Shown here piece by piece: positions 1 to 35,807 of a DNA stretch of 44,196 nt. A program made the position numbers and the translations under genes. Each line of letters starts with the position of its first letter. Positions within the stretch are counted from its first letter, which is position 1. Location of the stretch: positions 1-44,196 of the forward strand of contig JAKSDO010000272.1 of assembly GCA_022360055.1 (NCBI GenBank), read 5' to 3'. The stretch comes from Cytophagales bacterium. Its GTDB lineage: Bacteria > Bacteroidota > Bacteroidia > Cytophagales > Cyclobacteriaceae. The notes under the pieces are model-generated. The model was not told where the DNA came from. It did no database searches and was given only the letters and a program-made list of their open reading frames with translations.

Positions 1-26
1 ATTTGCTCCGGCCACGCCGGTTTCAT
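1..26 (-). repeat. 90-bp repeat family, copy m2 (cut by window edge)
   Basis: The first 26 bases of a second unit follow copy m1 directly on the minus strand: ATGAAACCGGCGTGGCCGGA then GCAAAT. The copies at this end are therefore in tandem, as at 14188-14367. What lies downstream is outside the window. Confidence 0.8.
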
Positions 27-31
27 CCGTT

Positions 32-115
32 TTATTTTTTTAGTTTGCTGACATACAGAGCAATACAATCATGCCCGTGCGTGTCTTGAATTTGCTCCGG
101 CCACGCCGGTTTCAT
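32..115 (-). repeat. 90-bp repeat family, copy m1 (89 bp, with 27-codon ORF)
   Basis: This copy runs on the minus strand from 115 to 27; the coordinates given cover its ORF. It starts ATGAAACCGGCGTGGCCGGA and ends in an A-rich tail before the next unit's ATG at 26. It reads as an uninterrupted 27-codon frame starting MKPAWPEQIQ and ending SKLKK then TAA. It has 89 rather than 90 bp because one base is missing in the A-rich tail. It is homologous to the copies at 14188, 14278 and 34456. Whether the peptide is made is unknown. Confidence 0.85.
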
Positions 116-14069: not shown

Positions 14070-14155
14070 TTATCCTGTAGCGTATTTGCTTATGATTCAA
14101 TATTTTACAGATATATTATTCTTTAGAAAATAATTTATTGTGAATAAATCGGGAT
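14070..14155. repeat. Second dispersed repeat, copy A
   Basis: These 86 bases align without gaps to 43805-43890 with about 80% identity by eye. The longest identical blocks are TTTGCTTATGA, TTCTTTAGAAAAT and AATAAATCGGG. Both copies are intergenic and A/T-rich, and both follow a hairpin. There is no reading frame of note. Confidence 0.75.
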
Positions 14156-14187
14156 AATTTTATTTCTTGCAATGATTTTATAAGCAT

Positions 14188-14277
14188 ATGAAACCGGCGT
14201 GGCCGGAGTAAACTCAGGACACACACGAGCATGATTGTGTTTCTCTGTATGTCAGCAAACTAAAAAAATATAAACGG
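14188..14277 (+). repeat. 90-bp repeat family, copy p1
   Basis: Begins ATGAAACCGGCGTGGCCGGA and runs exactly 90 bases to the next unit. The frame is MKPAWPE then TAA at codon 8, so this copy could not encode the full peptide. The hairpin CCGGC-GTG-GCCGG is intact. It stands in tandem with copy p2. Confidence 0.9.
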
Positions 14278-14367
14278 ATGAAACCGGCGTGGCCGGAGCA
14301 AATTTAAGACACACACGAGCATGATTGTGTTTCTCTGTGTGTCAGTAATCTAAAAAAATATAAACGG
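14278..14367 (+). repeat. 90-bp repeat family, copy p2
   Basis: Second tandem unit, again exactly 90 bases. A TAA stop interrupts the frame at codon 10. After that the frame is open and runs in phase into the NUDIX gene. The unit ends AAAAAAATATAAACGG, and the ATG that would begin a third unit is the NUDIX start codon at 14368. Confidence 0.9.
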
Positions 14368-15036
14368 ATGAAAATATTCATCAAAGATATTCCGATTGTA
14401 ATCGTATCAAATCACGAATTTATCAAGTCTTCCGATTACGATCACATTTTTAAAGGGCATCATTGGGACCCTCAGATCGAATCGCTTAAGGATGAAGTCC
14501 TCGTAAAACACGCTTCGGCGGAAGTAATCGACGAATTTCTGGTATATCTTAAACAAAACGGTCTTAAAAAGCTGGAAGGGATTACGTTTACGGTTGACAA
14601 CTATGACGAGGTTATTAAAGACATTAAAAAGGATTATACGGTTATAAAAGCCGCCGGAGGCTTGGTGCTGAATGAGGGAGAGGTTTTGATGATGTGGAGA
14701 CTAAAAAAATGGGATTTACCAAAGGGGAAGCTGGATAAAGGAGAAAAGCCAAAAAAAGCGGCGATCCGGGAAGTCGAGGAAGAATGTAATATAAAAGTAA
14801 AGGCCGGAAAGAAGATATGTCATACATGGCACACCTATAAACAAAACGGGGAGCGCATTCTGAAAAAGACCTATTGGTACCGGATGTATTGCATCGACGA
14901 TACTCAAATGAGGCCCCAGAAAGAAGAGAATATTGAGGAAATTAAATGGATGAATGAGGTGGAGTTAAAGGAAGCATTGTACAATTCCTATGCTTCCATC
15001 AGGGACGTGTTCCGGCATTACTACCTGATGGACTAA
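14368..15036 (+). CDS. NUDIX hydrolase with an N-terminal extension
   Basis: A 222-residue protein. Residues 1-90 form an extra N-terminal region (MKIFIKDIPIVIV onward) that I do not recognise beyond its occurrence in Bacteroidota NUDIX proteins. The NUDIX domain begins at about residue 94 (IKAAGGLVLNEGEVLMM), and the box spans 120-142: G-x5-E (GKLDKGE), then REVEEECNI. A Cys replaces the usual Gly near the end of the box, while the metal-binding REVEEE residues are kept. The substrate is unknown, though the family hydrolyses nucleoside diphosphates linked to other groups. The start codon abuts two tandem 90-bp repeats. The stop overlaps the coaD stop by convergent CTAA. Confidence 0.85.
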   Translation: MKIFIKDIPIVIVSNHEFIKSSDYDHIFKGHHWDPQIESLKDEVLVKHASAEVIDEFLVYLKQNGLKKLEGITFTVDNYDEVIKDIKKDYTVIKAAGGLVLNEGEVLMMWRLKKWDLPKGKLDKGEKPKKAAIREVEEECNIKVKAGKKICHTWHTYKQNGERILKKTYWYRMYCIDDTQMRPQKEENIEEIKWMNEVELKEALYNSYASIRDVFRHYYLMD

Positions 15037-34455: not shown

Positions 34456-34545
34456 ATGAAACCGGTAGGACCGGAGCAAACTCAGGACACACACGAGCAT
34501 GATTATATCGCTCTGTGCGTCAGCAACTTAAAAAAATACAAATAG
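34456..34545 (+). CDS. Small ORF of 29 codons made by the 90-bp repeat (copy p3)
   Basis: This repeat copy is exactly 90 bases and is open end to end: MKPVGPEQTQ at the start, SNLKKYK at the end, then TAG, which touches ATG at 34546. It is homologous to the frames in the copies at 14188, 14278 and 32-115. It begins 3 bp after the CoA-type NUDIX stop codon and ends 8 bp before the DUF819 start. The arrangement is what a translated coupled micro-ORF would look like. The stem here is CCGGT-AGG-ACCGG, a compensated version of that in the other copies. Expression and function are unproven, and the frame could be incidental. Confidence 0.4.
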   Translation: MKPVGPEQTQDTHEHDYIALCVSNLKKYK

Positions 34546-34553
34546 ATGAGAAT

Positions 34554-35807
34554 ATGGATCACACTGAAGAGGCAATTTTTACAAATGATGCTGTAGTATT
34601 TGGCATTTTAGTGGTCATGCTGGCCTTTATTTTTAAAACTTCATCGAGCAATAATCCTTTTTGGAGAAAGTTTTACAAGGTAATACCGATGCTGCTCTTG
34701 TGTTATTTTCTTCCTTCGTTGCTCACAACGTTTGGTTTGGTAAATCCCGAGGAGTCTCAATTGTATTTTGTCGCTTCCCGGTATATGTTGCCGGCCAGTT
34801 TGGTATTACTTACGCTCAGCATCGACCTCAAGGAAGTAATGAAGCTTGGCCCCAAGGCATTGATCATGTTCCTGACCGGGACTTTCGGAGTAGTTGCCGG
34901 AGGCCCGTTGGCCATTCTCATTGCCTCCTTTATTTCTCCCGAAACCGTGGGAGGCGCAGGTCCTGAAGCCGTATGGAAAGGCATGACGACCATAGCCGGA
35001 AGCTGGATAGGAGGAGGCGCCAATCAGGCGGCGATGTATGAAATTTTTCAGCCCTCGGATAAGTTGTATTCCATCATGATCACGGTAGACGTGATCGTGG
35101 CCGAAATCTGGATGGCATTTCTTTTGATCGGCGTTGGCAAGACAAAATCCATTGATCGTTTTTTCAAGGCAGATGCTTCTTCCGTTATCAATCTTCAGGA
35201 AAAAATGCATGAATTCAGCCAGCGGATCGCAAAGATCCCTTCTTTGGCCGACCTGATGGTTATACTTGGATTCGGACTTGGAATTACGGGGCTCTGCCAC
35301 CTGCTGGCAGACCATATTACGCCTTTCGTCTTGGAACATGCACCGGTTCTGGAGCGTTTCAGCCTGACGAACAAATTCTTCTGGTTGATTGTATTAGCTA
35401 CAAGTTTTGGACTTGGATTGTCATTTACAAAAGTCAGGAACCTCGAAGGCGCTGGGGCTTCCAGGGTCGGAAGTGTTTTTATTTATATCCTCGTCGCCAC
35501 TATTGGCATGAAAATGAATATACTGAAGATCTTTGATAATCCCGGTCTGTTTGTTGTCGGTGGCATTTGGATGTTGTTTCATGTAGTACTTCTTATTGTG
35601 ATGGCCAAGATCATCAGATCGCCATATTTTTTCCTTGCTGTCGGCAGTAAGGCGAATATTGGAGGAGCAGCGAGCGCACCGGTTGTTGCTGCGGCTTTTC
35701 ATCCTTCCCTGGCGCCGGTTGGGGTGCTACTTGCAGTACTGGGTTATGCTTTGGGTACATATGGCGCATGGCTGTGTGGTATACTCATGCGAATTGTCGC
35801 TCCATGA
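34554..35807 (+). CDS. DUF819 family membrane transporter-like protein
   Basis: A 417-residue integral membrane protein with about ten hydrophobic segments, of the DUF819 (YjcL-type) family. Typical stretches are ILVVMLAFIFKTSSSNN, FGVVAGGPLAILIASF, WIGGGANQAAMYEIFQPSD and the C-terminal SKANIGGAASAPVVAAAFH, with its Gly/Ala-rich re-entrant-like segments. The family is placed in a transporter superfamily but the substrate is unknown. A longer frame from GTG at 34515 runs through the repeat and is not preferred; the ATG at 34554 begins MDHTEEAIF, a natural start. Confidence 0.85.
   Translation: MDHTEEAIFTNDAVVFGILVVMLAFIFKTSSSNNPFWRKFYKVIPMLLLCYFLPSLLTTFGLVNPEESQLYFVASRYMLPASLVLLTLSIDLKEVMKLGPKALIMFLTGTFGVVAGGPLAILIASFISPETVGGAGPEAVWKGMTTIAGSWIGGGANQAAMYEIFQPSDKLYSIMITVDVIVAEIWMAFLLIGVGKTKSIDRFFKADASSVINLQEKMHEFSQRIAKIPSLADLMVILGFGLGITGLCHLLADHITPFVLEHAPVLERFSLTNKFFWLIVLATSFGLGLSFTKVRNLEGAGASRVGSVFIYILVATIGMKMNILKIFDNPGLFVVGGIWMLFHVVLLIVMAKIIRSPYFFLAVGSKANIGGAASAPVVAAAFHPSLAPVGVLLAVLGYALGTYGAWLCGILMRIVAP

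Follow-up and report, generated by a model that had tools for sequence, protein, structure and literature searches.

Short interspersed repeats of bacteria usually lie between genes, at no fixed distance from a reading frame. Several described kinds resemble the repeats treated below. The REP and REPIN repeats of RAYT systems are short, extragenic and high in copy number, carry a hairpin at one end and are presumably moved in trans. For subclass 2.6 of the Y1 transposases, excerpts of Quentin et al. 2018 (PMC6006769) describe flanks made of atypical structures without GT[AG]G, copies of which occur elsewhere in the genome. MITEs, such as BrickBuilt of Porphyromonas gingivalis, are short, non-coding and present in many copies, with a direct repeat at both ends. 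Palindrome-associated elements derived from IS200/IS605 are generally understood to combine a fixed short target with a hairpin and ends that are not inverted; ends of the IS200/605 type need a second hairpin at the right end. Rickettsia palindromic elements are short mobile elements tied to coding-sequence position; according to excerpts of PMC10969869 they encode a conserved peptide and are often in-frame insertions inside ORFs. Excerpts of PMC3733652 and PMC4596501 also served for the comparison.

The family described here is present in hundreds of copies in one Bacteroidota genome. Its units of ~90 bp begin with ATGAAA, insert at ATGAAA and commonly end flush with the start codon of a gene, which is an unusual form of insertion. 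Among open-licence papers in PMC, no title or abstract was found that describes an ATGAAA start-codon repeat. The window, the whole stretch of DNA that was analysed (44,196 nucleotides), is contig C179 of a 7.55-Mb genome in 300 contigs, and it holds the following features:

14150..14187, plus strand: native leader of the NUDIX gene; same-genus orthologs have a recognisable counterpart that directly abuts the start codon (L230 compared with L231-L236)
14188..14277, plus strand: unit 1, type 1, 90 bp, starting with ATGAAACCGG
14188..14193, plus strand: left hexamer ATGAAA
14194..14206, plus strand: 5′ hairpin CCGGC-GTG-GCCGG of unit 1, based on covariation over 44 sequences and on folds; repeated in unit 2 at 14284-14296
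14218..14236, plus strand: conserved core GACACACACGAGCATGATT of unit 1, conserved across genera in the alignment; repeated at 14308-14326
14262..14277, plus strand: A-rich tail of unit 1, directly 5′ of the next ATGAAA; repeated at 14352-14367
14278..14367, plus strand: unit 2, type 1, 90 bp
14368..15036, plus strand: NUDIX gene, its start codon within the right hexamer (14368-14373)
34456..34545, plus strand: single type-1 unit of 90 bp, then ATGAGA at 34546-34551; not flush
27..115, minus strand: type-1 unit of 89 bp at the contig end
1..26, minus strand: opening 26 bases of one more unit, which the contig end cuts short

Units 1 and 2 stand head to tail between the native leader and the NUDIX start codon; Tandem Repeats Finder gives a period of 90, 2.1 copies, 92% matches and 0 indels for 14188-14373. 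A first-pass annotation of the window had described exact 90-bp tandem units. Both units do have that length, without indels, but their sequences are not identical, and the length is not fixed in the family: 82 of 115 near-complete type-1 units are 90 bp long and the others fall within 80-91 bp. The same annotation was right that the ATG of a would-be third unit is the NUDIX start codon, since the third ATGAAA begins the coding sequence of a NUDIX protein of 222 aa (Pfam PF00293, E 4.7e-19). The related copies that it had placed at 1-115 and 34456-34545 are also there, as a minus-strand unit plus a fraction and as a single plus-strand unit. The unit at 34456-34545 lies 8 nt upstream of the likely start of a DUF819 gene (ATG at 34554), and the context of the copy at 1-115 is cut off by the contig end; within the window, flush placement is seen at the 14188 locus only.

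When 44 units chosen from seven genomes are aligned, the order of parts is ATGAAA, a 5-bp hairpin, a conserved core (GACACAC..GCATGATTA), a middle that varies by lineage and an A-rich tail. The 5′ hairpin is kept by compensatory change: 91.8% of alignment cells are paired, and 20 cells show a double change against 7.1 expected, a value that none of 500 shuffles reaches. Versions of the hairpin slid along the alignment score far worse than the true register; counted by pairs, double changes (3 against 2.2 expected) are unremarkable. A second hairpin, in which the core would pair with GTGTGTC, appears in folds of single units, and RNAalifold drops it on 65 and on 44 sequences; nor does RNAalifold support any hairpin at the right end. 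The first 20 nt of the consensus match the reverse complement of its last 20 nt at 2 of 20 positions, so that terminal inverted repeats are absent. In the 15 nt before the final site, A makes up 63% of the tails; the corresponding values are 43% for native leaders at filled sites and 40% for 1151 other ATG starts. At the gathering score no Rfam family matches the window, the best weak match being sroH (E 0.2).

Some copies depart from this plan. In two same-genus genomes (G003 and G005; L309, L311, L313, L070, L076) the hairpin loop holds extra, mostly palindromic sequence of the CCCGCCTGCCGGCGAGGCAGG type, so that the hairpin is extended and not broken; two copies of Splendidivirga corallicola (L335, L339) have an extra stem-like insert right after the 5′ hairpin. 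Several copies of G001 (L296, L304, L308) share GCCTCTAAAATCC just upstream of the left ATGAAA. One unit on contig C248 of G000 (stretch C248_1, minus strand from 8843) is a hybrid, its type-1 5′ part joined within the core to the hairpin and body of type 2.

As the first-pass annotation had supposed, the family is dispersed. The 19-base core matches the genome 243 times with at most three mismatches, and the pattern read backwards, used as a control, matches it 0 times. A related second type (type 2), with another middle and tail and a unit of 91 bp in the copies examined, gives 59 genome matches for its 3′ part and again 0 for the control. Profiles of both types, run with nhmmer, give 160 matches in 1.9 Mb and 0 once that sequence is reversed; these controls exclude chance as the source of the matches. 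With one overlap removed, the survey comprises 159 units in 110 arrays. It covers 100 stretches and the window, merged to 49 stretches (1,906,072 bp, roughly one quarter of the genome), mostly from contigs with known copies, so that density and occupancy are over-estimated, while position relative to genes should suffer less. Coding sequences (1517 CDS) were called with a simple home-made dicodon model after masking the elements, and called start positions are therefore approximate. Of the 43 places listed, 11 are no more than 300 bp from a contig end, and array sizes are accordingly lower bounds. Contigs of the assembly break at or next to repeat arrays in the window (1-115) and at the ends of C86, C195, C203, C88, C196, C223, C108 and C25. 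Repeats of this kind break assemblies and can mislead the annotation of start codons.

Placement was counted for 105 arrays, five edge arrays having been dropped, and it is non-random relative to gene starts. The array ends exactly on a called CDS start in 64 cases and in the same ORF, with the called start at most 90 nt away, in 8; the other 33 comprise 7 that precede a CDS start by 1-60 nt and 26 in other places. The right-hand site opens an ORF of at least 50 codons in 78 of the 105 arrays, and does so with ATG in 76. By comparison, the 3197 element-free ATGAAA hexamers fall into 197 at starts, 81 in the same-ORF class, 67 before a start, 380 elsewhere and 2472 inside CDS. Starts are thus over-used relative to other non-coding ATGAAA sites, with an odds ratio of 4.4 (3.5 with the same-ORF class included). 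For arrays whose right hexamer is ATGAAA (60 exact, 5 same ORF, 20 other) the odds ratio is 6.8, or 5.2 with the broader start class. In the surveyed quarter an element stands on 60 of 257 exact ATGAAA gene starts, an occupancy over-estimated by the choice of contigs. Inserting at ATGAAA, the element usually lands exactly on a gene's start codon.

Because masking of the elements before gene calling could hide an interrupted gene, a further test was made without gene calls, in which the frame had to be open for at least 50 codons on both flanks. Such frames occur at 5 of the 105 arrays, at 10 of the 197 unfilled starts, at 38 of 442 intergenic sites of other kinds and at 1931 of the 2558 sites inside CDS; copies avoid coding frames, and interrupted genes are no commoner among them than at element-free starts. 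Arrays away from starts occur in either orientation relative to the neighbouring genes. Filled starts (64) are richer in A at +7 and +8 than unfilled ones (196 sites) and differ from them at -5, -2 and -1 (p 0.003-0.03, uncorrected for 46 positions).

Comparison with related genes separates insertion from inheritance. In 6/6 same-genus NUDIX orthologs (L231-L236) the leader runs, unit-free, straight into ATGAAA or ATGAAG; the two-unit array is therefore an insertion, and these orthologs do not have the repeat as an ordinary conserved leader. Likewise, the 70 nt before the start contain no unit in 4/4 near orthologs of the gene at L261 (77-81% identity), nor in the eight orthologs closest to the gene at L275. 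In the opposite direction, target genes of relatives gave eight matches in the G000 sequence covered, at 50% identity or more. Five are empty there (L081, L085, L289, L317, L319); the other three, which are the ortholog of L073 and a gene filled in three species (L105, L069, L307) that we take to be kinase-like, are filled. We regard it as very probable that the family is mobile and targeted to ATGAAA. The first-pass annotation had suggested a targeted insertion or a mobile 5′ element, and empty orthologs and the over-use of starts bear this out; the target, however, is mainly ATGAAA, often but not always a start codon.

The hexamer flanks the arrays on both sides, exactly as ATGAAA on the left in 83 of 105 and on the right in 85 of 105. 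The pair may be a target site duplication, as in MITEs, or one of the two copies may belong to the element. The sequences compared are contradictory on which copy is native: the left copy agrees with the empty G000 relative at L094 (identity only 49%), and the native one at L275 is more plausibly the right copy.

Set beside the described kinds, the units share with REP repeats a conserved hairpin, but their foot in the alignments is ATGAAA and not GT[AG]G, and the unit of ~90 bp with its conserved core and A-rich tail, inserted at a hexamer that is mostly a start codon, has no counterpart there. They are short and transposase-free, as MITEs are (the 115 near-complete type-1 units give no coding signal), yet they differ from these in lacking terminal inverted repeats and in having a fixed hexamer target, mostly at start codons. 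Unlike in IS200/IS605-derived elements, the hairpin abuts the target hexamer and a right-end hairpin is unsupported; no TnpA with such ends was found. Rickettsia palindromic elements differ in that the ATGAAA units show neither coding selection nor an excess inside frames. The family works like a passenger repeat of the REP or MITE class but is filed in none of the described kinds, each known kind being without at least one defining feature here, or undecidable on it.

Arrays grow by repeated insertion. Both types are mixed in 25 of 36 multi-unit arrays, which means that units were added one after another. Pure tandem duplication fails as their origin for the same reason, although it may have contributed in part, type-1 neighbours being closer than average. 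The last two bases before ATGAAA, rare tails included, are common to 28 of 45 adjacent pairs, compared with 26% of random pairs (p 5e-7). Across 16 type-1 pairs, members of one array are much closer to each other than to units of other arrays over the last 46 columns; over columns 20-50 they are hardly closer (4.25 within against 4.78 between), and the hairpin is intermediate. Tail sharing above chance suggests insertion guided by annealing, in which the end of an incoming unit would anneal to the resident tail and be resolved to it; we infer this from few pairs. Some of the shared tails may instead go back to tandem duplication, since type-1 neighbours also show some likeness in the body (median percentile 0.18). 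Between the tail of an element and the native leader the last two bases are equal in 12 of 99 cases against 6.6 expected (p 0.03), a weak effect.

The family also occurs outside the host genome. Model R1 matches 7 of 59 genomes, namely its own genome, four of six of the same genus (G001, G003, G004, G005), G015 (one copy) and G022 (two copies). When 16 chosen relatives were searched more sensitively, G022, which is Splendidivirga corallicola, gave 13 copies and G015 one; the other 14, the same-genus G002 and G006 among them, gave none. Of the 13 copies in S. corallicola (BMA10 is a strain of this carrier), 10 open an ORF of at least 50 codons. A Marinilabiliales MAG has one copy, at the start of a gene that is presumably kdpC. 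The loci fetched from relatives comprise 59 distinct arrays, some cut at contig ends and a few with a non-ATG right site; 46 of the 59 open an ORF of at least 50 codons. Judged by sequence, the units in other Bacteroidota lineages, including those of S. corallicola, are diverged yet have the design of the host-genome family. A class sample of 395 genomes, with 10 candidates scored per genome, matched only in the own genome, which at this low sensitivity is weak evidence of absence. Pattern scans gave 0 in viral contigs and, for the exact type-1 pattern, 0 in named genomes, where a looser type-2 pattern found five stretches.

A search for the mobiliser, which covered genes and longer copies, found none. 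Pfam PF01797 matches the genome four times; by nhmmer, the fetched stretches of these four loci and of three RT loci contain no unit. RAYT genes were set aside as carriers, the Y1 genes at L062 and L063 having other flanking palindromes when inspected by eye, and so were the RT genes, which are pieces of group II intron type in unit-free stretches. An autonomous longer version was not recovered either: a search of the 1.9 Mb with the 5′ half added to the full-model matches only one variant copy and one copy at a contig end, and none of five copies without the 3′ part convincingly frames a gene downstream.

The placement counts raise the question of what guides insertion to gene starts. The start excess could come wholly from selection on an element that targets the hexamer alone, flush insertion sparing promoter and coding sequence and other sites being harmful; this is a serious contender, which we put somewhat short of even odds. 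It accommodates the filled ATGAAA away from starts, among them six between two opposite-strand genes and five before a converging gene, and the fact that interrupted frames are as rare as at unfilled starts though most element-free ATGAAA lie in CDS. Yet of the sites between converging genes, which should be near neutral, 5 are filled against 46 element-free, compared with 64 against 197 at starts, and filled starts differ in the flanking bases given above, with the same uncorrected p values. Selection may in any case account for part of the start preference. Spread through RNA, with a transcribed unit reverse-transcribed from priming at ATGAAA, perhaps by the RT of a group II intron, would fit the A-rich 3′ end, the sharing of tails and the occurrence, in the element's genome, of intron RNA and of RT pieces of the group II intron type. 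Copies truncated at the 5′ end are, however, a hallmark of target-primed reverse transcription, and their absence argues against it: among 10 partial matches none is without more than the first 9 model positions, whereas 6 are without the 3′ part. Some copies, moreover, lie antisense between genes, and we consider this route improbable.

We think it just as improbable that the units are REP-type repeats of an atypical kind, mobilised by a Y1 transposase, for instance one of the Bacteroidetes-centred subclass 2.6. The short one-end hairpin, extragenic position and high copy number speak for it, as do the PF01797 matches and the atypical flanks described for that subclass in excerpts of PMC6006769; the different palindromes beside the Y1 genes and the unit-free PF01797 loci speak against it. 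Two further explanations can be given very little credence. One is a conserved cis-regulatory leader inherited with its genes; two gene families do carry units in at least two species (L073 with L078; the kinase-like L105, L069 and L307), but orthologs are empty in both directions, arrays mix the two types and copies occur in places where no leader would be. The other is a translated N-terminal peptide repeat like the Rickettsia palindromic elements. The first-pass annotation had counted the unit as 30 codons, and the consensus is open over these and in frame with the gene at 90 bp. The count has no coding meaning, since synonymous and non-synonymous changes are both as expected (ratio 1.0), 36 of 115 units have a stop within the first 72 nt, and the 40 of 115 that are open into the gene compare with 34% expected.

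Overall, the best explanation, with a probability of roughly 0.62, is that of short non-autonomous mobile elements that insert at ATGAAA, mostly at start codons, and are mobilised in trans. Units of ~90 bp insert singly or repeatedly, mostly at start-codon hexamers, and the finished junction reads native leader, ATGAAA-unit(s), ATGAAA-gene. Of this picture, the insertion itself, its hexamer and start preference, the hairpin, the repeated insertion and the shared tails are established. A putative trans-acting enzyme would recognise the hairpin on a single-stranded copy, whose tail and ATGAAA would anneal to the target. A second insertion would tend to inherit the resident tail. Insertion at the start codon may be tolerated because it leaves the promoter and leader in place upstream, and because the A-rich tail would serve as the gene's new leader; that this tail could act as a leader had already been proposed at first pass. 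The single-strand annealing mechanism in particular is tentative, and we would sooner bet against it than for it. Should the tail drive translation, the elements would rewire 5′ leaders genome-wide. In a stronger version the element would home to translation starts, reading ATGAAA in its gene-start context (leader, transcription bubble or annealing), stacking, copying the resident tail and substituting the leader, and would be of a categorically new kind; this we think unlikely, but if it were true a large share of the ATGAAA-starting genes in some species would have a replaced 5′ leader. The family could point to a system for precise 5′ insertion.

Two minor observations concern the genes examined as candidates. 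The Y1 (RAYT-like) genes at L063 and L062 have palindromes of their own, of the TGTCGGATA..TATCCGACA type and of the GTCTTAGCGAGACGCTAAGAC type, which are unrelated to the ATGAAA repeat. One group II intron-type RT is in two pieces, L250 (C129:1-1989) and L252 (C129:1179-4418), that flank an ORF which we take to be serine-recombinase-like, as if a recombinase element had inserted into the RT gene.
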